Below are positions 3,856 to 30,506 of a DNA stretch of 64,000 nucleotides, one piece after another. The position numbers and the translations under genes were made by a program. The notes beneath the pieces are model-generated. The model made no database searches, had not been told where the DNA came from, and saw only the letters and a list, made by a program, of their open reading frames with translations. This DNA comes from Paracoccus salsus (lineage in GTDB: Bacteria; Pseudomonadota; Alphaproteobacteria; Rhodobacterales; Rhodobacteraceae), in the NCBI RefSeq assembly GCF_021556615.1, contig NZ_JAKGGD010000002.1, forward strand, positions 434,001-498,000. Reading direction: 5' to 3'. Within the stretch, counting starts at the first letter, position 1. Each line of letters opens with the position of its first letter.

Positions 3856-4782
3856 TCAGCCCTTCAGCGCCGCGATGTCGCCCGGGACGCCGATATTTCT
3901 GACCACCGCGTCCCTCGCGGTCCGCTTGATCATCCCCGACAGCGCCTTGCCGGCGCCGATTTCCCAGAACTCGGTCACGCCCGCCTCGGCCAGGTTGGCG
4001 ATCGACTCGCGCCAGCGCACCGTCCCGGTGACCTGCTCGACCAGCAACCGCCTGATCGCGCCGGGCTCGATCACCGCCTCGGCGCGGACATTGGCAATCA
4101 GCGGCACTGCCGGAGGCTGGATATCCACCCCTGCCAGCGCGTCGGCCATCACCGCCGCCGCAGGCTGCATCAGCACCGAATGGAAGGGGGCCGAGACCGG
4201 CAGCATCAGCGTGCGTTTGGCACCGGCCTCCTTCGCCGCCGCCGCCGCGCGCTCGACCGCGCCCCGGTGACCCGAGATCACGACCTGTGCCGGGTCGTTG
4301 TCGTTGGCGGCCTGGACCACCTCGCCGCCCGCGGCCTCGCGGGCGATCCGGTCGACGGTCTCGAAATCCAGCCCCAGCACGGCGGCCATCGCGCCCTGAC
4401 CGACCGGCACCGCCTCCTGCATGGCCTGGCCCCGCAGCCGCAGCAGACGCGCCGTGTCCTCGAGGCTCAGCGACCCCGCCGCGCACAGCGCCGAATATTC
4501 CCCCAGGGAATGACCCGCGACATAATTCGCGTCATGGATGCCGAAACCCTCGGCCTCCAGGGCGCGGAACGCCGCCATCGACGCGGCCATCAGCGCGGGC
4601 TGGGCGTTCTGGGTCAGGGTCAGGGTCTCGATGTCGCCGTCCCAGATGAGATCGGACAGCTTTTCGCCCAGGGCTTCGTCCACCTGATCGAATACGTCGC
4701 GCGCGGCCGGATAGGCCTCGGCCAGTTCACGACCCATCCCGATGGTCTGCGCCCCCTGTCCCGGAAAGACGAATGCCCGCAT
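3856..4782 (-). CDS. fabD: malonyl-CoA:ACP transacylase FabD
   Basis: The 308-residue protein transfers malonyl from CoA to AcpP to start fatty-acid elongation. It opens MRAFVFPGQGAQ, the standard FabD start. The nucleophile is Ser92 in GHSLGEYSA and the partner His is in the SAPFHS segment near residue 200. It is the first gene of the fabD-fabG unit. Upstream lies a degraded phosphatase gene on the same strand, so any fabD promoter must lie inside or just after that remnant. Confidence 0.96.
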   Translation of the reverse strand: MRAFVFPGQGAQTIGMGRELAEAYPAARDVFDQVDEALGEKLSDLIWDGDIETLTLTQNAQPALMAASMAAFRALEAEGFGIHDANYVAGHSLGEYSALCAAGSLSLEDTARLLRLRGQAMQEAVPVGQGAMAAVLGLDFETVDRIAREAAGGEVVQAANDNDPAQVVISGHRGAVERAAAAAKEAGAKRTLMLPVSAPFHSVLMQPAAAVMADALAGVDIQPPAVPLIANVRAEAVIEPGAIRRLLVEQVTGTVRWRESIANLAEAGVTEFWEIGAGKALSGMIKRTARDAVVRNIGVPGDIAALKG

Positions 4783-4858
4783 TGCGGCCCCCTGAAATTA
4801 TGTTCCCGACAAACGGCATACCTTGCACGGGGCCTTGCCGCAACTGACAGCACCAAGC

Positions 4859-5160
4859 CTAGCTTTCGGGAAAGCCCAGCCAGGGTTCCATGTCTTCCCG
4901 GGTGACGCCCATGGGATGCGCGCGGCTCTGCCCCGGAATGCCGATATGTCCGAAGACCGGCGACAGCTGCCATTCCGCCGCTTCCCCGCCCCCTCCGGCG
5001 ATCCCGGCTCCTTACAGCGCCGAGGCGAGCCCGGTCCGGTCAGCCCCGCCCATGCCGTGAATCAACAGCGGCCTTGGCGCACCGCGCATGACCTGCAACA
5101 GATCCTGAACCTGTGCGCGATCCAGCGAACGCGGCCGCAGCCCCCATTCAAGGATACCAA
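4859..5160 (-). pseudogene. remnant of a tyrosine/dual-specificity phosphatase
   Basis: This roughly 440-base gap between fabD and ndk holds a decayed reading frame on the minus strand. Read through, it gives a tyrosine-phosphatase-like P-loop and C-terminus: RPLLIHGMGGADRTGLASAL, then a stop, then QLSPVFGHIGIPGQSRAH and ending PWLGFPES. The normal loop is HCxxGxDR; here the catalytic Cys codon (5054-5056) reads GGC, Gly. An in-frame TAA (5012-5014) follows the loop, and no N-terminal half is present before the ndk terminator. Cys loss, stop and truncation all point to a dead gene. The family call rests on the loop and the C-terminal pattern known from alphaproteobacterial phosphatases. Confidence 0.65.
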
Positions 5161-5174
5161 CACCCAGAGCGCAT

Positions 5175-5203
5175 GAAAAAAGGCGTCCCCGGGGGAGGCC
5201 TTT
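5175..5203 (-). terminator. intrinsic terminator after ndk
   Basis: On the minus strand AAAGGC pairs with GCCTTT around an inner TCCC/GGGA stem, followed by a T tract, starting about 25 bases beyond the ndk stop. It closes the ndk transcript and insulates it from the phosphatase remnant and fabD. Confidence 0.8.
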
Positions 5204-5226
5204 CTCAGATCGTGTATCGCGGCAGC

Positions 5227-5649
5227 TTAGCCGACCAGTTCCAGCCCCGAGAAGAAGAAGGCAATCTCTTCCTTGGCGGTTTCCGGCGCGTCCGACCCGT
5301 GGACCGAATTTTCGCCGACCGACAGCGCGAATTCCTTGCGGATGGTGCCCTCGTCGGCGTTCGCCGGGTTGGTGGCGCCCATCACGTCACGGTTCTTGGC
5401 AATCGCGTTCTCGCCTTCCAGCACCTGCACCACGACCGGCTCGGACGCCATGAACTCGACCAGTTCGCCATAGAAGGGGCGGTCCTTGTGAACCTCGTAG
5501 AACTTGCCGGCCTGTTCGGGCGACAGCTTGATGCGCTTCTGCGCAACGATGCGCAGTCCGGCATCCTCGAACTTGGCGTTGATCTTGCCGGTCAGGTTGC
5601 GACGTGTCGCGTCGGGCTTGATGATGGAAAGGGTGCGTTCGGTGGCCAT
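5227..5649 (-). CDS. ndk: nucleoside diphosphate kinase
   Basis: The 140-residue enzyme balances nucleoside triphosphate pools by moving the gamma phosphate of ATP to NDPs through a phospho-histidine. The catalytic His117 is in NSVHGSD, and the N-terminus [14 protein letters not shown] is typical. The length matches the family. The ATG at 5649 is used because AAGG lies upstream; the frame opens further but is not conserved. It is a single-gene unit with its own terminator, divergent from the AI-2E-type transporter. Confidence 0.97.
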
Positions 5650-7818: not shown

Positions 7819-8015
7819 GACCGGGTCCGACGCGGGCGACAGCGCCGACGGCTGATCTCGGGCTGGGTATCACCCCCTCGAACCGTCCAGATCCTGCCCG
7901 ATATTCCCGCAATCGGCCCGCGTCGCGGGCAAAGCGCCGGGCGTTTACTTCGGCACGGCCTTCGCCGCTTGCGGGGTTCATTGACCTGGGATCGGGCGGC
8001 GCGCCCAGTGCCGTC

Positions 8016-8831
8016 ATGTTCGATGCCTCCGCCCAGCCGATCACCATGCAGCGCAGCTCCGGCCGCGCATATGTCAGTCTGGGCCCGCGGGGGATCATCG
8101 ACCTGGCGCAGTCCGGATCTGCCAGGGTGATGCTTCCCCGTGTGACGGCGGGACTGCCCGAGATCGTTTTCCTGAACACGTCAGGCGGGCTGGCCTCGGG
8201 CGACAGTCTGGAATTTGCGGTCGAGTTGCGCCCCGGCACCCGCGCGCTGGCCACGACGCAGACGGCCGAGCGCGCCTACCGCGCCGAGCAGGCACCGGCC
8301 CGCGCCGCCGTGCGGCTGAAGGTCGCCGAGGGGGCGTGGCTGCACTGGCTGCCGCAGGAAACGATCCTGTTCGACGGCGCCAGGCTGTGCCGCCGGACCG
8401 AAATCGATCTGGCCGAGGGCGCCGGCTGCATGCTGCTGGAAATGATCGTGCTGGGTCGGCTGGCGATGGGCGAACAGCTTGCGCGTCTGACATTGGGCGA
8501 CAGGCGGGTGGTCCGACGCGCCGGGCGGCTGGTCCATCATGACGCGCTGATGCTGGACGATGACGCGCTGAACCGGCTGGACGGTGCGTCGATGCTGGGC
8601 GGCGCGCGCGCGATGGCAACGCTGGCGGTCATCGCGCCCCAGGCGCCCGATCTGTTGGCCAGGGCCCGCGACGTGCTGGACGAACCCGGCGTCACCTCGG
8701 CAGCCAGCGCCCCTCCCGGGCGACTGGTGGTGCGCTTGCTGGGCGGCGATGGCTGGCCGCTGCGCCGGCAGTTGAACCGCCTCCTGTGCTCGCTGCGCGC
8801 CGATCCCCTTCCCCGTATCTGGCAGGTCTGA
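8016..8831 (+). CDS. ureD: urease accessory protein UreD
   Basis: The 271-residue protein is the UreD/UreH subunit of the nickel-insertion complex that binds apo-urease with UreF and UreG. Family features are [11 protein letters not shown] near residue 11, [11 protein letters not shown] near 53, [10 protein letters not shown] near 80, and [14 protein letters not shown] near 110. The ATG at 8016 gives the usual MFDA start but has no good ribosome site, so the start is less certain than the gene. It is the first gene of the urease operon and ends one base before ureA. About 200 bases separate it from olsB and probably hold the operon promoter. Confidence 0.93.
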
Positions 8832-8832
8832 G

Positions 8833-9144
8833 ATGAAGCTTTCCCCTCGCGAACGCGAAAAGCTGCTGATCTCGGTCGCCGCGATGGTCGCGCGCGGCCG
8901 GTTGGGCCGCGGCGTCAGGCTGAACCATCCCGAGGCAATCGCGCTGATCACGGATTTCGTCGTCGAGGGGGCACGCGACGGCCGCAGCGTGGCCGACCTG
9001 ATGCAGGCGGGCGCCCATGTCATCACCGCCGGTCAGTGCATGCCGGGGGTGCCCGAGATGATCGACTCCGTCCAGGTCGAGGCGACCTTTCCCGACGGCA
9101 CCAAGCTGGTCACCGTTCACCACCCCATCCGCGAGGAGGCCTGA
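8833..9144 (+). CDS. ureA: urease subunit gamma
   Basis: The 103-residue small structural subunit of urease opens [14 protein letters not shown] and contains the conserved [16 protein letters not shown] and [12 protein letters not shown] blocks. With UreB and UreC it forms the alpha-beta-gamma trimer that hydrolyses urea to ammonia and carbamate in the cytoplasm. The length is close to the usual 100 residues. It starts one base after the ureD stop, so translation is probably coupled. Confidence 0.97.
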
Positions 9145-9145
9145 C

Positions 9146-9322
9146 ATGAACAAGCTTACCATTCTCGTGGCCGCGCTGCCCGCCACGGCGCTGGCGCATG
9201 CCGGCGATCACGGTCAGGCAGGCGCGTTCCATGTGCTGACCGCACCCGATCACCGGGCCGTTGCCGCCCTGGTCGCGGCGCTGATGGTCTGCGTCTGGAT
9301 CTGGCAACGGGGCAGGTCATGA
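9146..9322 (+). CDS. 58-residue membrane protein with HX5DH motif, inside urease operon
   Basis: A small open frame lies exactly between ureA and ureB: its ATG is one base after the ureA stop, and its TGA overlaps the ureB ATG (ATGA). The protein has a signal-like N-terminus ([17 protein letters not shown], possibly cleaved before HAGDHG), a His-rich linker with HVLTAPDH, and one C-terminal helix ([15 protein letters not shown]). HVLTAPDH is an exact HX5DH, the nickel-site motif in helix 1 of HupE/UreJ nickel permeases, but the rest of such a permease is absent. It may bind nickel at the envelope for urease. The translational coupling argues that it is real; the function is an inference. Confidence 0.75.
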
Positions 9323-9624
9323 TTCCCGGCGAAGTTTTCCCGGCCGACGGCCGGATCACCCTCAACCAGGGCCGCGAGCCGGTCACGATCCTGGTCGCCA
9401 ATACCGGCGACCGCCCGATCCAGGTCGGCAGCCATTATCACTTCGCCGAGACGAACCCGGCGCTGGACTTCGATCGCCGGGCCGCGCGTGGCATGCGCCT
9501 GTCGATCCCCGCGGGGACCGCCGTGCGCTTCGAGCCCGGCCAGTCGCGCGAGGTGCGGCTGATCCCCTATGCCGGCAACCGCGTGGTGCAGGGCTTTCGC
9601 AAAGACATCATGGGGGCGCTGTAA
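9319..9624 (+). CDS. ureB: urease subunit beta
   Basis: The 101-residue beta subunit opens MIPGEVFP and has the conserved [19 protein letters not shown] stretch and the [13 protein letters not shown]...G motif. It packs against UreC in the urease trimer. Its ATG overlaps the stop of the 58-residue protein by four bases, and it ends one base before ureC, so the block is translationally coupled. Confidence 0.97.
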
Positions 9625-9625
9625 C

Positions 9626-11314
<1,689 letters not shown>

Positions 11315-11327
11315 GGCAGGACCTGAC

Positions 11328-11837
11328 ATGACTGCAACCGCTCATACCATCACCCGGAACGCGCCCGCGCCCTTTGACGGCGAGGTGGCGCTGGATTACG
11401 AAGGCCGCCTGCTGCGCCGCAAGCGGCTGACCTGCGCGCGCGGCGATTTCCTCGTGGATCTGCCCGAGGTCACCAGCCTCGAGGATGGCGACGTCTTCGC
11501 GCTGTCCGACGGCCGCCAGATCGTCGTGCGCGCCGCCCCTGAACCGGTGCTGGTCGTTCGCGGCCACCTGGCGCGACTGGCCTGGCATATCGGCAACCGA
11601 CACACTCCCTGCCGGATCGAGGCCGACCGGCTGATTATTCGCCAGGATCATGTGCTGGAGGCGATGCTGAAGAAGCTGGGCGCCCAGATCGCCCATGCCG
11701 AGATGCCCTTCCGCCCCGAGGGCGGCGCCTATGGTCACGGTCGCACCTTCGGCCATGACCACGGCCCCGACCACACGCACCACCACACGCACCACCACCA
11801 TCGCCACCATGGTCATGACCACAGCGAACACGCCTGA
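11328..11837 (+). CDS. ureE: urease accessory nickel chaperone UreE
   Basis: The 169-residue metallochaperone has an N-terminal UreE domain (LRRKRLTCARGDFLVDLP near residue 30), a central metal-binding domain with GNRHTPCRIE near 88, and a very His-rich tail (about 16 His in the last 35 residues) that can bind several nickel ions. It passes nickel to UreG. The last 23 bases overlap the start of ureF, so the His-rich tail and the UreF N-terminus share DNA in different frames. Confidence 0.95.
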   Translation: MTATAHTITRNAPAPFDGEVALDYEGRLLRRKRLTCARGDFLVDLPEVTSLEDGDVFALSDGRQIVVRAAPEPVLVVRGHLARLAWHIGNRHTPCRIEADRLIIRQDHVLEAMLKKLGAQIAHAEMPFRPEGGAYGHGRTFGHDHGPDHTHHHTHHHHRHHGHDHSEHA

Positions 11838-12465
11838 GATCGCAAGGCTGCAGCTGGCGCAGTATCTGTCGCCCGCCTTTCCGGTGGGGGGCTTTGCCTG
11901 GTCCCAAGGGTTGGAATGGGCGATGGATCAGGGCGCGGTGACGCGCAGCAGCCTGCCCGCCTGGCTGTCAGACTGGCTGGATCACGGGCAAGGCTGGGGC
12001 GATGCCGTGCTGCTGTCGCTGGCGCTTCGTGCGCGTGCGGACCACGCGGCGCTGGACGATCTGGCCCGCGCCGCCTGCATGAGCAGCCAGCGCCTGACCG
12101 AAACCCTGGAACAGGGCGCGGCCTTTGCCGCCAACATGGCTGCGCTGACAGGCAGGCCCCATAAGCCCGTCGCGCTGCCCATAGCGCTTGGCCGCGCCTG
12201 CGCCGCCCTGCCCTTGCCCGCCCCCGAGGTGATCGCGGCATTCCTTCAGGCGCAGGCCGCGAACCTGATCAGCGCCGCCGTCCGCTTTCTGCCGCTTGGT
12301 CCGGTCGAAGGACAAGGCATGCTGGCCCGAATGCAGCCGCGCATCCTGAGCCGGGCGAACCGCGCCGCAATCGCCTGCGAGGCGGATCTGGCCAGCGCCG
12401 CCTGGGGCGCGGATATCGCTGCCATGCACCACGAAACCATGACCTCAAGGATCTTTCGCTCATGA
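11815..12465 (+). CDS. ureF: urease accessory protein UreF
   Basis: The 216-residue UreF is part of the UreDFG activation complex and is thought to gate GTP hydrolysis by UreG. Family marks are [19 protein letters not shown] near residue 17 and the C-terminal [15 protein letters not shown]. The start is at the ATG at 11815 or the ATG at 11809, both inside the 3' end of ureE. The stop overlaps ureG by four bases (ATGA). Confidence 0.93.
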
Positions 12466-13085
12466 GCCTCAACGGACCTTTGCGCGTCGGCATCGGCGGC
12501 CCCGTCGGGGCCGGAAAGACCACGCTGACCGAACAGCTTGCCCGCGTGCTGGCGCCCCGGCTGTCGATGGCCGTCATCACCAACGATATCTACACGCGCG
12601 AGGACGCCGAGGCGTTGATGCGCGCGCAGGTCCTGCCCGCCGAACGCATCCGGGGCGTGGAAACCGGCGGGTGCCCGCACACCGCCATTCGCGAGGATGC
12701 CAGCATCAACCTGGCCGCCATCGCAGACCTGACCGCCGCGTTTCCCGATCTGGACCTGGTGCTGATCGAATCGGGCGGTGACAACCTGGCCGCCACGTTC
12801 AGCCCCGAACTGGCCGATCTGACCATCTATGTCATCGACACCGCCGCCGGGCAGGACATCCCTCGCAAGCGTGGTCCGGGTCTTGCGCGGTCCGACCTGC
12901 TGGTCGTCAACAAGACCGACCTCGCGCCGCATGTGGGTGTGGATGTGGCCTTGCTTGAAGCCGACGCGCGACACGCGCGCGCGTCCCGTCCCGTGGTCAT
13001 GGCCGCGCTGCGGCGTGGCGCTGGCGTGCAGGATGTCGTCGCGTTCCTGATCCACCAGGGCGGGCTGCAACTGACCCCGGCGTGA
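12462..13085 (+). CDS. ureG: urease accessory GTPase UreG
   Basis: The 207-residue SIMIBI-class GTPase drives nickel insertion into urease. The P-loop [10 protein letters not shown] is at residues 11-20, the nickel-binding Cys-Pro-His is in [13 protein letters not shown] near 70, and the guanine-specificity [11 protein letters not shown] is near 150. It is the last intact gene of the urease operon; urea-transporter remnants follow directly. Confidence 0.98.
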
Positions 13086-13273
13086 TCGTGATGTTGTCCC
13101 GGGCATGTGCGGCACAGCCTGCCTGTGATCGAACCAGCGCCAGGCGGGGCCTCTCGAAATCCGCCCGAAGCCTGTCCAAATGCCTCGGTCCGTCATGTGC
13201 TGCATCTGCGAAGGTCCAGACCTTCCACAAGATCACAACAGGGACACCGGCCATTGCGGCGGGCGAAAGGGTG

Positions 13274-13790
13274 ATGATGACCGGTGCGGCCGCGCTGGCG
13301 AATGGCGCCTCGGCACAGGAGGACGCGCCGATCAAGACCGGTGTGCTGCACTCGCTGTCGGGCAGGATGGCGATTTCCGAGACGACGCGTGAATTGCTGG
13401 CCATCAGCGACGTGAACGCGATCTTCGACTGCTGGACAAGCGTCAGCCGCAAATCGGTGCTGCCGGTCATCGAGGAGCTGAACGGATTGCAGCTCTATCC
13501 CGTGCCGTACTTGGGCGAGGAATCGTCGAAGAACGTCATCCATACCGGCGCCGCGCCCAACCAGCAGCCCATCCCGGCGGTGGACTACATGATGGAGGGT
13601 CTGGGCGTCGAATTCTGGGCGCTTCAGGGCACGGGCTATGTCTGTCCGCGCACCACGAACAACATCCGCGACGCCGATGTGGGCTTCTGAAAGGAGCTGG
13701 CGGCGGCGGGGGTGTCGGCCGATGATATCCCGCTCATGGCCTTCTCGGTCGGCGAAGAGGAACTGGCCGGGCAAGGCATGCGGCATGTTC
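13274..13790 (+). pseudogene. urtA: urtA remnant (urea ABC transporter substrate-binding protein)
   Basis: The frame encodes clear UrtA blocks: APIKTGVLHSLSG, then CWTSVSRKSVLPVIEELNG, then EESSKNVIHTGAAPNQQ, then PRTTNNI. Between AISETT and RELL about 45 residues of the normal protein are missing. A second in-frame gap joins PRTTNNI to a much later segment. A TGA at 13688-13690 stands where the F-Y-KEL tyrosine is expected, and the frame then goes on with IPLMAFSVGEEELAG before homology stops. The periplasmic urea receptor cannot be made. A degraded signal sequence may extend upstream to about 13082. The gene follows ureG in the same direction. Confidence 0.82.
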
Positions 13791-13900
13791 AACACCGAAA
13801 CGAAGGCCTGCGGCAGGTCCGGTCGAACTGCCGATCCGCGTCAGACCGTGGGGCGGGATGCACCGCCCCTCGTTTCCCGAACGCTCGGAACGTTTTCGAC

Positions 13901-14268
13901 GTGACCCATCCGGCCCGCCCGCTGATCGGGCCTGCGCCGGCGCTGTTCCTGCTGTTGCCCGGTCCGCCAGCGACCGCCAACGAGGCGTTGCAAGCCCTGC
14001 TGAACGACAATCCCGAACAGATCGGCAAACCCTCGCGGCGCATGGTCGGGCCGCTGATCGCCCAGATCGCGGCGATCGGGGACGCTGGACGCTGTCGCCG
14101 GTCTTGGCGCCGCCCCTGGCCTTCGCGGTGACCTTCGGCGCCGGCGTTATCCTTTCCCGGCTGGTGATCCGAAACCTGGCGCTTCGGCCGCTGGAACCAC
14201 TGCTGGCGACCTTCGGCGTGTCGATCGCGCGGCAACAGCTGGCCAGGAACATCTTCGGCACGCAGGCA
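13901..14268 (+). pseudogene. urtB: urtB remnant (urea ABC transporter permease)
   Basis: Two pieces of UrtB are left in different frames. The first (13901-14090) has a signal-like stretch and ANEALQALLNDNPEQI..PSRRMVGPLI, matching the UrtB N-terminal extension. The second (14101-14268) has the membrane block LAFAVTFGAG..L.RLVIR....RPLEPLLATFGVS and QLARNIFGTQ. Most of the permease is missing and the two parts are out of frame with each other. At about 14265 the text jumps directly into UrtE. Identification rests on recall of UrtB sequence patterns. Confidence 0.72.
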
Positions 14269-14830
14269 AGCTGCGTGATGGGCAGTAACGGCGTGGGCAA
14301 GACCGCGCTGATGACCCTGTGGCGAGTCGGCCCCCGCGTTCCGGCCGAGAGGTCGGCCTTGAGGGCAGGCCGCTGGGCCGCATCAACGCTCGGCCGATGG
14401 CGCGGCTCGGCGTCGGTTGCGTGCCGCAGGGGCGCGCGATCGTTCCCACGCGGACCGTGCGCGAGAACATGGAGACCGGCTTTGCCCGCCTGCGCCGCGA
14501 CGAACGCCGCATTCCCGACGCGATCTTCGACCGTTGCCCGGTGCTGGCCGAGATGGCGCAGCGACGCGGCGGCGCGGGCTGTTGCTGGACGAACCGGCCG
14601 AGGGAATCCAGCCCGGCATCATCACCCAGATCGGCCGGGTCATCGCCGCGCGGCGCGACCGTGGCGACATGGCGATCGTGCTGGTCGAACAGCTCTTCGG
14701 CTTTGCGTGGCATTTGGGCGACGAATTCCCGGTGCTGGAACGCGGACATGCGGTGCTGCAGGGACAGAAGTCGGACCTGCGACGCGAGGATCCGCATGCA
14801 AGCCTGGCGGGCCACGCCGAGGCGGTCTGA
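14269..14830 (+). pseudogene. urtE: urtE remnant (urea ABC transporter ATP-binding protein), fused behind urtB
   Basis: UrtE text begins at the Walker A region (CVMGSNGVGKTALM), joined directly to UrtB, so the rest of urtB, all of urtC and urtD, and the urtE start are deleted. It goes on in a second frame with GVGCVPQGRAIVPTRTVREN and a third frame with LLLDEPAEGIQPGIITQIGR and GDMAIVLVEQLFGF, ending at 14830. The LSGGQ signature segment between QRRGG and LLLDEP is also missing. At least two frameshifts plus the deletions make it non-functional. Confidence 0.82.
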
Positions 14831-14839
14831 GCCGCGCGA

Positions 14840-15679
14840 TCATCCCGATGCGGTCGCCTCCTTCCTCAGATCCGCCCGCAGCGCCCCGGTGGCGGCAGCA
14901 AGCGCCATCGCCAGCGTCGCGGTCGCGGTCATCGGGCGTGACCCCGCCGCCTCGACCTCGACCAGCGTCAGGGACAGCGCGCTGCTTCCCAGTCGCGCGG
15001 CGACGCCGGGATCGGTGATGGCGACAATCTGAGCCCCATTGCCGCGCGCGGCGGCGCAGACATCCAGCGTTTCCTGCATGGCGGGCGAGAGCGCGATCGC
15101 CAGCACCGCATCGCCCCGGCGCACCGAACCGGCGCCGATGACCTGGCCGAACGCCCCGTGCAACAGGGCCGGGACATCGACCCGTTCGAGGATATAGGCC
15201 GAATGAGCGGCGACGGCAAAGCAGCGCCCAGGCCCGACGACATGAATCAGCCCCGCCCGCGCCAACACCCCCGCCGCGCGGTCGAACCGCGTCGGATCGA
15301 CGGTCTCGAGCATCCTCTCCAGCGACAGCCGACCGGCCTCGACACATTCGGCCAGAAGGGTGACGGGTCGGGCGGTTCCGTGGCGTCTGAGCTGTTCAAG
15401 GCGCTGCGCAATATCGGGCCGGGGCAGCTCGAGCGGGCTACGGTACAGGTCGCGCATCTGGGCATAACCTGAAAATCCCATCGCCTGCGCGAACCGCACC
15501 ACCGCCGATGCGGGCACCCCGGCGCCGCGCGCGAATTCGGCGATCGTCGCCTGGGCCATGCGTGCCTGCTGGGCGGCGGCGTATTCGGCACATTGACGCA
15601 ACCGTCTGGGCAAGCTGGCATGCATCGCCCGGATCCGGGCGATCAGTTCATCCGTGTTGTCCGGTGCTCCACCTTTCAT
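14840..15679 (-). CDS. MurR/RpiR family transcriptional regulator
   Basis: The 279-residue regulator has an N-terminal HTH_6 DNA-binding domain (residues about 10-85, with FARGAGVPASAVVRFAQAMGFSGYAQMRDLYR) and a C-terminal SIS phosphosugar-binding domain (about 125-265, with GPGRCFAVAAHSAYILERV). Members of this family sense sugar phosphates or related ligands and control sugar or amino-sugar catabolism. No sugar genes are near. It converges on the dead urtE gene with nine bases between. The ATG at 15679 is chosen by fit to family length; no strong ribosome site is seen, so the start is uncertain. Confidence 0.85.
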   Translation of the reverse strand: MKGGAPDNTDELIARIRAMHASLPRRLRQCAEYAAAQQARMAQATIAEFARGAGVPASAVVRFAQAMGFSGYAQMRDLYRSPLELPRPDIAQRLEQLRRHGTARPVTLLAECVEAGRLSLERMLETVDPTRFDRAAGVLARAGLIHVVGPGRCFAVAAHSAYILERVDVPALLHGAFGQVIGAGSVRRGDAVLAIALSPAMQETLDVCAAARGNGAQIVAITDPGVAARLGSSALSLTLVEVEAAGSRPMTATATLAMALAAATGALRADLRKEATASG

Positions 15680-15804
15680 GAATCGCACCACTCTGCCGGC
15701 ACCCATGCGAAGTGTGACGCCGGACAGCCGAATGATCCACGAGATTCGACACAACCTATTGGTGAAAACGGATTCTCGAGCGCAGAGCGTGCCGCCCCCC
15801 AGGC

Positions 15805-16257
15805 CTAGCGCTTGCGCTGCCAGCGGCCGCCCTCTTCGGACCAGTATTCGGCGGCGACCCCGGCGGCGGTCAGCAGGCGCCATTGGTCGCGGGCGCGCGC
15901 GACCGCGTCGCCGCTGCCGCCGTCAAAGACGATGCAGGCGCGCTCAAGGCGCGCGACCTCGGCGGCCGCGACCTCGGCGCCGTCCAGCGCCATCAGGCAG
16001 ACGGGGTCATTGCTGGCGAGATCCTGTCCGGCGACGGTCAGCAGGACGGGCTGGCGGGCGTCGTGCGGGCCGCCGGCCAGCCCGTGGGGCAGGAAGCCGT
16101 CGCCGAGCCAAAGCTGCCGGTCCAGCCAATCCATGCGTTCGGGGTCGGCGCCGCGCAGCTCGACCCGCCAGCCTGCCTGAAGGGACTTGCCGATCAGGAT
16201 CGGCAGCAGCGCCTCGGCGGGCTGGCGGGTGAGGTGATAGAACAGCGCGTTGCCCAT
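15805..16257 (-). CDS. holC: DNA polymerase III subunit chi
   Basis: The 150-residue protein fits HolC, which links the clamp-loader to single-strand-binding protein at the replication fork. Family features are FYHL near residue 7, LL..LIGKSL..GWRV near 20, and LDRQLWLGDGFLPHG near 48. It lies downstream of pepA on the same strand, the arrangement common in Proteobacteria. A cluster of 11-base repeats occupies the gap between them. Confidence 0.88.
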   Translation of the reverse strand: MGNALFYHLTRQPAEALLPILIGKSLQAGWRVELRGADPERMDWLDRQLWLGDGFLPHGLAGGPHDARQPVLLTVAGQDLASNDPVCLMALDGAEVAAAEVARLERACIVFDGGSGDAVARARDQWRLLTAAGVAAEYWSEEGGRWQRKR

Positions 16258-29376: not shown

Positions 29377-30336
29377 TCAGCGCCGCGTCCAGCCGTAAAG
29401 CGCGATCAGTTCCGTTGCGACATGGGCGCCTGCGATGGCGGTCGCGCCGGTGGTGTCATAGGGCGGCGAGACCTCGACCACGTCGCCACCGATCAGATCG
29501 ATTCCGGCAAGCCCGCGCAGCAGCGCCGCCGCCTGCCACGACGCCAGCCCGCCCCAGACCGGCGTGCCGGTGCCGGGCGCAAAGGCCGGATCCAGCGCGT
29601 CGATGTCGAAGGTCACATAGACCGGACGGCCCGCCACGACCTCGCGGATCCGCGCCAGCGTCCGCGCGATGCCGTCCTCGTGAACCGAAAGCGCGTCGAG
29701 GATGGTGACCCCCAGCGTGTCGGGATTGTCGGTACGGATGCCGACCGAGACGCTTGCGAGGGGATCCACGATCCCCTCGCGAATCGCCTTGTAGAGGAAT
29801 GTGCCGTGATCGATCCGGTCGGGGTCGTCATCGACCCAGCTGTCGGAATGGGCGTCGAACTGGATCAGAGCCACCGGGCCCCGCCTGCGCGCCACCGCGC
29901 GCAGGATCGGCAGGGTGATCGAATGATCGCCCCCCAGCGTCACCGGCGCCGCACCCGAGTCCAGGATCGCACCGACATGCGATTCGATTCGCGACGGCAC
30001 ATCCTGCGTCCTCGCATAGTCGAAGGCCATGTCGCCGCAATCGACGACATGCAGCAGCGACAGCGGGTCATAGCCCCAGCCATAGGGCGGATCATAAGGT
30101 TGCAGGGTCGAAGCCTCGCGGATCGCGCGCGGCCCGAACCGGGTGCCGGGCCGGTTGGTCACCGCCTGATCGAAGGGTATGCCGGTCACCGCGACATCGA
30201 CCCCGGACAGATCCTTGGAATAGCGGCGGCGCAGGAAGCTGGTCGCGCCCCCGAAGGCGTTCTCATAGGACGGTCCGCGCGGATCATCGCGCGCAAAGGC
30301 CTGATCGACCTGCGTCTTGGCATCTTCCAGCGCCAT
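29377..30336 (-). CDS. speB: agmatinase/ureohydrolase family protein
   Basis: The 319-residue manganese enzyme has the ureohydrolase ligands GGDHS (near residue 142), DAHSD (near 166) and DIDALDP (near 248). It removes urea from a guanidino compound. The family includes agmatinase, guanidinobutyrase and guanidinopropionase and these cannot be separated by eye. Release of urea would feed the urease encoded in this window. The start at 30336 is preferred for its GGGGGG upstream; a GTG at 30354 is also possible. Confidence 0.85.
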   Translation of the reverse strand: MALEDAKTQVDQAFARDDPRGPSYENAFGGATSFLRRRYSKDLSGVDVAVTGIPFDQAVTNRPGTRFGPRAIREASTLQPYDPPYGWGYDPLSLLHVVDCGDMAFDYARTQDVPSRIESHVGAILDSGAAPVTLGGDHSITLPILRAVARRRGPVALIQFDAHSDSWVDDDPDRIDHGTFLYKAIREGIVDPLASVSVGIRTDNPDTLGVTILDALSVHEDGIARTLARIREVVAGRPVYVTFDIDALDPAFAPGTGTPVWGGLASWQAAALLRGLAGIDLIGGDVVEVSPPYDTTGATAIAGAHVATELIALYGWTRR

Positions 30337-30506
30337 GGCGCCCCCCGTCGTCACGTTTCGTCAACCGCACAGTGCCCCTCGGGCTGCGGCATCGCAAGCC
30401 GCCGGGCCACCGGCGGCCCGGTCCATGTCACGGAGGTGACCGAACGCCGCAACGGCGCTGCCGGCAGGGTGCGCGGACCACGGATGGAAAAAGCGTTGAG
30501 CAGGAC

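Follow-up and report, generated by a model that had tools for sequence, protein, structure and literature searches.

The DNA analyzed here (the window) is a stretch of 64,000 nucleotides, positions 434001 to 498000 of contig C21, from a Paracoccus genome of 3.30 Mb in 29 contigs with a reported completeness of 99.99%. The genus assignment comes from ureC of Paracoccus aurantiacus TK008, which matches genome G107 in the same genus group with 100% identity over 1722 bases. All coordinates below without a contig name are positions in this window unless a relative's stretch is named. An intact ureDABCEFG cluster (about 7950 to 13085) lies ahead of a short stretch of decayed urt genes:

7950 to 8828, forward strand: ureD, an open frame with a near end-to-end tblastn alignment to relatives (start approximate)
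8833 to 9144, forward strand: ureA, urease gamma (NF009712, 160 bits; cut-off 123)
9319 to 9624, forward strand: ureB, urease beta (NF009682, 166 bits; cut-off 129)
9569 to 11314, forward strand: ureC, urease alpha, intact (TIGR01792, 902 bits; cut-off 680)
11328 to 11837, forward strand: ureE, urease accessory protein (best UreE model NF009758, 228 bits, E = 5.5e-68, just below the cut-off of 237)
11695 to 12465, forward strand: ureF, longest frame, aligned near end to end with relatives by tblastn
12462 to 13085, forward strand: ureG, intact (TIGR00101, 290 bits; cut-off 204)

The ureABC genes are complete and accompanied by their accessory genes, with the products of ureA, ureB, ureC, and ureG scoring over the curated cut-offs; ureD gave no NCBIfam match at 1e-10. 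The listed start of ureC at 9569 overlaps ureB, and because many relatives align with this frame only from about residue 22 to 24, the true start is probably near 9626. Likewise, the true start of ureF probably lies further inside its longest frame.

Behind ureG, remnants of urtA, urtB, and urtE follow one another in this order and in the same direction at 13271 to 14824, distributed over three forward frames and followed by a regulator gene and holC:

13271 to 13835, forward strand: urtA remnant, with three deletions, a TGA stop at 13688-13690, and (by eye) a frame break near its 3' end
13901 to 14268, forward strand: urtB remnant, corresponding to residues 1-63 and 407-466 of 644 (G046 numbering)
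14268 to 14269, forward strand: deletion junction at which 2542-2616 nt were lost (end of urtB, urtC, urtD, and start of urtE)
14269 to 14824, forward strand: urtE remnant, with a frame break at about 14319 and a deletion at about 14572
14840 to 15883, reverse strand: rpiR-family regulator gene (Pfam HTH_6 and SIS), convergent and beyond the remnant
15808 to 16257, reverse strand: holC (Pfam and synteny), the next conserved gene, which marks the locus as the ancestral one

The frame at 13082-13687 matches UrtA (TIGR03407) with 141 bits (E = 3e-41; cut-off 493), the frame at 13858-15015 matches UrtB (TIGR03409) with 57 bits (E = 2e-15; cut-off 250), and the frames at 14319-15029 and 14417-14827 match UrtE (TIGR03410) with 65 and 78 bits, respectively (cut-off 286). 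Recognizable urtA begins at about 13271; the open reading frame (ORF) that starts at 13082 does so in the ureG-urtA spacer, overlapping the stop of ureG. No match to urtC or urtD is retained within the stretch in the comparison with relatives, and full-length UrtA to UrtE proteins are not encoded there. The original prediction, made from the nucleotide letters, had placed urtA, urtB, and urtE pieces in order and in one direction behind ureG. A translated search finds similarity to all three, and family matches and synteny agree on that arrangement.

The window was compared with 20 stretches from relatives, and lesions were defined by alignment to nine intact relatives. In intact relatives, the series urtA-urtB-urtC-urtD-urtE starts within about 200 nt behind ureG, and urtE is followed by holC and pepA where the stretch reaches that far, with a convergent rpiR-type regulator gene in between in three of them (G046, G099, and G068). 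Since the flanks of the window are the same, the remnant lies at the ancestral place, and its gene order, direction, and flanks indicate descent from such an operon. The window shares locus, order, and direction with the urtABCDE operons that stand beside ureDABCEFG in its relatives, and its remnants align to the nine intact operons with a DNA identity of about 80%; it differs from them in retaining only about 28% of the length and no complete gene. In the nine intact relatives, the distance between the ends of ureG and urtE is 6085 to 6162 nt, versus about 1745 nt in the window, in line with a predicted shrinkage from roughly 6 kb to 1.7 kb. The rpiR-type gene occupies the same place in the window as in the three relatives, where the first 66 residues are unaligned. 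It was not found behind urtE in the other seven relatives with urtA to urtE that were compared; two of those seven, in which holC is not seen either, may end too early.

Six large deletions (of about 123, 153, 420, 1030, 2600, and 60 nt) account for the missing DNA. The urtA gene has lost 123 nt at about 13377-13388 and 153 nt at about 13668-13679, both in frame and both seen against all nine relatives aligned, as well as 419-422 nt at about 13762. Within urtB, 1024-1030 nt were deleted at about 14080-14092 with a change of frame, as measured against six cleanly aligned relatives (the alignment is broken up in G095, G071, and G012; deletion calls against G071 are those among the matches listed). 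The largest deletion fuses the urtB and urtE pieces in frame at 14268/14269, and 59-61 nt lost from urtE at about 14572 remove the LSGGQ signature. Together with the TGA codon and the frame breaks, these are disabling lesions relative to the intact homologs. At least four losses had been predicted, namely, the two in-frame gaps and the stop at 13688 in urtA, the frame break in urtB, a jump at about 14265 that takes away everything from the rest of urtB to the start of urtE, and the LSGGQ segment with two frame changes in urtE. That count stands, and the alignments add a third deletion in urtA and give the urtB deletion its size. Microhomology at the deletion junctions, viewed in the sister sequences, was uninformative at about 20% divergence.

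Loss of constraint was assessed by counting, for first, second, and third codon positions (cp1, cp2, and cp3), the changes in the window at sites common to nearly all intact relatives. The strict set comprised 43, 39, and 31 sister sequences for urtA, urtB, and urtE, respectively, with rows containing stops or having low coverage dropped and with G000, G070, and G083 omitted by design. Against this set the remnant has changed at 19/261 cp1, 30/295 cp2, and 0/58 cp3 sites. At the same codons, six intact controls (about 140 to 300 sites each) show 1, 1, 0, 0, 0, and 3 changes at cp1 and 0, 0, 0, 0, 0, and 1 at cp2. The cp2 changes are spread over the three genes (13/142, 3/19, and 14/134) and occur at about the same rate as those at cp1; the cp3 count is below the neutral-decay expectation of about 3 by estimate, for which we have no explanation beyond chance. 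Against nine sisters, the counts are 23/336, 37/360, and 5/126 (cp1, cp2, and cp3) for the remnant and 6/467, 2/501, and 14/191 for ureC, and the cp2 changes in the other urease genes are 4/185 in ureG, 0/93 in ureA, 1/98 in ureE, and 6/151 in ureF. Whole-gene controls from three relatives were similar to the other controls except for urtB of the intact G095, which was not clean (cp1, 6/105; cp2, 3/117), which makes urtB less reliable as a standard than urtA or urtE. These codon-position counts show that the urt remnant is without protein constraint, purifying selection being absent from its surviving sequence, and that urease is still constrained in the window lineage; the adjoining urease is, as predicted, intact in the sense of being both full length and under purifying selection.

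We conclude, with a probability of about 0.88, that positions 13271 to 14824 are the decayed remnant of an ordinary urtABCDE importer operon that once stood behind ureG, while urease was kept. The importer function was lost on the lineage of the window genome, and deletions and substitutions have since piled up regardless of reading frame or codon position.

Could the true genome carry an intact operon that was lost by assembly collapse or sequencing error? Scattered error-like frame breaks do occur in one relative, G001 (ureD, urtB, and urtC), but nothing in the window supports such an error; a collapse cannot account for six distinct deletions, a stop, and the change of about 10% of the shared cp2 sites, and the frames of the flanking ure, holC, pepA, and lptF genes are open and align near end to end with relatives in a genome reported as almost complete. 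We therefore regard this explanation as very improbable. Hardly more credit can be given to the idea that a surviving piece still functions, as a short UrtA-like protein (13271-13690) or as an in-frame urtB-urtE fusion. It is true that two of the urtA deletions are multiples of three, that the frame at 13082-13690 is open, and that the junction of the urtB and urtE pieces keeps the frame; however, cp2 has changed about as often as cp1 in all three genes, UrtB is in pieces, urtC and urtD were not found in the stretch, and the UrtE signature motif is deleted. Finally, urease might have been acquired by transfer after urea use was lost, with the urt-like DNA as unrelated debris. This is scarcely conceivable: we found no evidence in its support, several relatives have the same flanks (an acyltransferase-like gene upstream and holC downstream), and the ureC genes of many genus members are 89-93% identical to this one.

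A further explanation, which we consider unlikely though worth weighing, is that uptake was replaced, another transporter (such as the UrtA-related ABC operon of contig C27, or a symporter) now importing urea and so relaxing selection on urt. The C27 system (C27:168818-173204) has a binding protein with 107 bits against UrtA and an ATPase with 212 bits against UrtE. Both scores fall well short of the cut-offs (493 and 286), the FAD-monooxygenase-like gene about 0.5 kb downstream (best model NF005720, named "hypothetical protein") points to another substrate, and a UT-type channel is absent. Profile searches, including the search for a second urt operon that the original prediction had proposed, found no other UrtA, UrtB, or UrtE over the cut-off in the genome. 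Candidates for a second operon were rejected on their scores: the sole other UrtA-like match, at C27:168818 (the 107 bits above), the best UrtE-like ATPases on C24 (231 bits) and C27 (211-212 bits), and the C24 system, whose binding protein is weakly LivK-like (115 bits; cut-off 477). UT-type channels (PF03253) are absent from 124 of the 125 genus genomes searched, with this genome among the 124; the search is valid because it gives a match in G090 (G090:C1:2227564-2228439, 293 bits), a genome without a ureC match. For UreI, a single match of 25.6 bits (cut-off 25) covers 31 of 166 model positions and by eye lies opposite a 490-codon ORF, and it was taken as chance.

As a source of internal urea, the original prediction named an agmatinase-like enzyme. 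An agmatinase is present at 29380-30354 on the reverse strand (NF002564, 421 bits; cut-off 302), but a full arginase is encoded elsewhere, at C23:324789-325667 (284 bits; cut-off 228), so the source need not be agmatinase. Arginase as the reason for urease retention was tested genus-wide and does not discriminate: it scores over the cut-off in 122 of 125 genus genomes, with or without a urease match, and therefore its presence alone fails to explain why urease was kept. The agmatinase gene adjoins a prfA-like gene; by eye, the same pair lies just past the end of the urt-rpiR region in G099, which indicates a rearrangement there between the window and G099.

To place the loss within the genus, we used the 121 genomes common to both searches, defining urease as a ureC match of at least 850 bits to the window UreC and urt as UrtB over its cut-off. 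Both were present in 78 genomes, urease alone in 12, urt alone in 2, and neither in 29. UrtB over the cut-off is missing from 12/90 urease-type genomes (completeness is only 71% for one of these 12), and urease is missing from 2/80 UrtB genomes (one of the two is 86% complete, and its UrtB is cut short at a contig end). Among the 29 genomes with neither, G023, G034, and G102 hold a full-length distant ureC (57-59% identity, 707-737 bits), which, if counted as urease positive, gives 15/93 without UrtB; G035 and G063 hold ureC pieces. Further distant ureC genes (51-57% identity to that of the window) exist at G004:C20, G062:C171 and C172, G025:C1, G048:C6, G103:C14, and G042:C39. Some genomes (G009, G026, G042, G060, G109, G105, G113, G065, G005, and G043) have two UrtB matches over the cut-off, one of them of at least 400 bits.

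A tree was inferred from the urease proteins only, for 57 urease sets of the 61 loci compared. It omits G021, G048, G058, and G084 (more distant ureases without urt), and four genomes of the remaining more distant urease class were used as the outgroup. Seven rows lack an intact urt operon, which requires six changes, five of them forced by well-supported branches (support is below 80 on 15 of 54 inner branches). Loss of urt with urease kept thus happened several times in Paracoccus. The window row has a long end branch (0.22), a fork support of 89, and no close sister, so that its loss is not datable more finely with the genomes compared; the comparison with sister genomes that had been proposed as a way to date each deletion therefore defined the six deletions but not their times.

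The other loci differ in what is left. G083 lacks urtA and roughly 213 residues from the start of urtB, and the remaining urtB has a frame break; urtC, urtD, and urtE look constrained (cp2 changes, 3/293, 0/183, and 1/183). Either this locus (L168 9198-13130) lost its binding protein recently, or it is used with a different one. In G070, the gene next to ureG is a decayed urtA (L215, reverse strand, about 4480 to 5400; cp2 changes, 16/152), and UrtB over the cut-off is found elsewhere in its genome; by eye, the urtA remnant is followed by transposase- and tRNA-like sequence. In G104, only about 70 nt separate ureG from holC, with no urt DNA there. G036 likewise has no urt DNA between these genes, with a 373-codon ORF on the other strand in their interval, and in G075, G082, and G091 urease stands without urt in a different setting. 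In G001 (L182 2151-12332), an otherwise well-conserved cluster, the frame breaks lie in ureD, urtB (two), and urtC and are either sequencing errors or early decay.

Most probably, the ATP-driven importer became dispensable, as it would with scarce external urea or plentiful other nitrogen, while urease would still pay by releasing ammonia from internal urea, mainly from arginase, and from diffusing urea. Deletion bias is usual in bacterial pseudogenes, and by it deletions would continue until nothing is left, as in G104. The view in the original prediction that selection kept hydrolysis and dropped uptake is supported by the decayed urt genes, the constrained urease, and the one-sided recurrent loss; its stronger statement, which makes the cell dependent on internal or diffusing urea, goes beyond these data, from which we infer that such dependence may exist.

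Bacterial pseudogenes under deletion bias typically carry many deletions, stops, and frame breaks and lose their codon-position bias. The remnant is like them in its deletions, stop, frame breaks, and lost codon-position bias and unlike them in that its base composition moves toward GC. The test of base composition was unplanned and was prompted by the substitution spectrum of the codon analysis. At formerly shared sites, 28/258 A/T positions have changed to G/C and 11/356 G/C positions to A/T, giving an implied equilibrium GC of 0.78 (0.65-0.89; Fisher one-sided P = 0.0001); cp1 and cp2 alone give 28/258 versus 11/298 and 0.75 (0.61-0.86). The signal is strongest in urtE (16/111 versus 4/157) and is not significant in urtA alone (9/133 versus 6/176, P = 0.14). 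The independently dying urtA of G070 gives 16/144 versus 14/181, with an equilibrium of 0.59 (0.43-0.75), not significant on its own (P = 0.2). The window urease genes go in the opposite direction (A/T to G/C, 8/836; G/C to A/T, 33/1493); they are constrained and GC-rich from the start and therefore are no matched neutral control.

On balance, we lean toward the view that DNA freed from protein selection in this high-GC bacterium drifts toward GC and not toward AT, the direction expected of a universal AT-biased mutation. Mutation has been argued to be AT biased in bacteria generally, with the caution that pseudogenes still feel selection on base content (PMC2936535, 2010); another study proposes biased gene conversion (PMC4450053, 2015). 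If the drift holds over many dead genes, the high GC content of Paracoccus would be kept by a process that acts on nonfunctional DNA too, be it GC-biased conversion, GC-biased mutation, or selection on base composition. With a single locus and a partial replicate these three are not separable, and the repeatedly dying urt operons would be ready replicates for measuring the process.

The remnant is a genuine feature of a known kind, and there is firm support for reading it as a pseudogene. Urease without urt was described for 23 cyanobacteria with complete ureABCDEFG and no urtABCDE, for which the authors propose that urea from arginine breakdown is detoxified or recycled, or else invoke diffusion (PMC6737895). 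The gene content is the same as here; whereas the accessible part of that paper reports the absence as such, the window shows decay in progress, and the loss is polarized by relatives. Similarly, five genomes of ammonia-oxidizing archaea have urease and no known urea transporter, and diffusion was suggested (PMC10753782); they resemble the window in having urease without a recognized importer, and the accessible part of that paper describes no remnant. Among the papers listed by searches of the open-licence literature, and in the accessible part of PMC9239080, no prior report of a urt pseudogene beside urease was found.

This analysis adds a genus-wide, polarized series of losses together with a substitution record. 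The gene loss itself is ordinary but is seen at an informative stage, in a genus that offers several stages of decay, ranging from a missing binding protein to clean excision, and the dying urt copies may be used as near-neutral records of base substitution where genomes are rich in GC. In Paracoccus, uptake is lost more readily than hydrolysis (12/90 versus 2/80), and therefore a urease cluster does not imply that its host scavenges urea from the environment.
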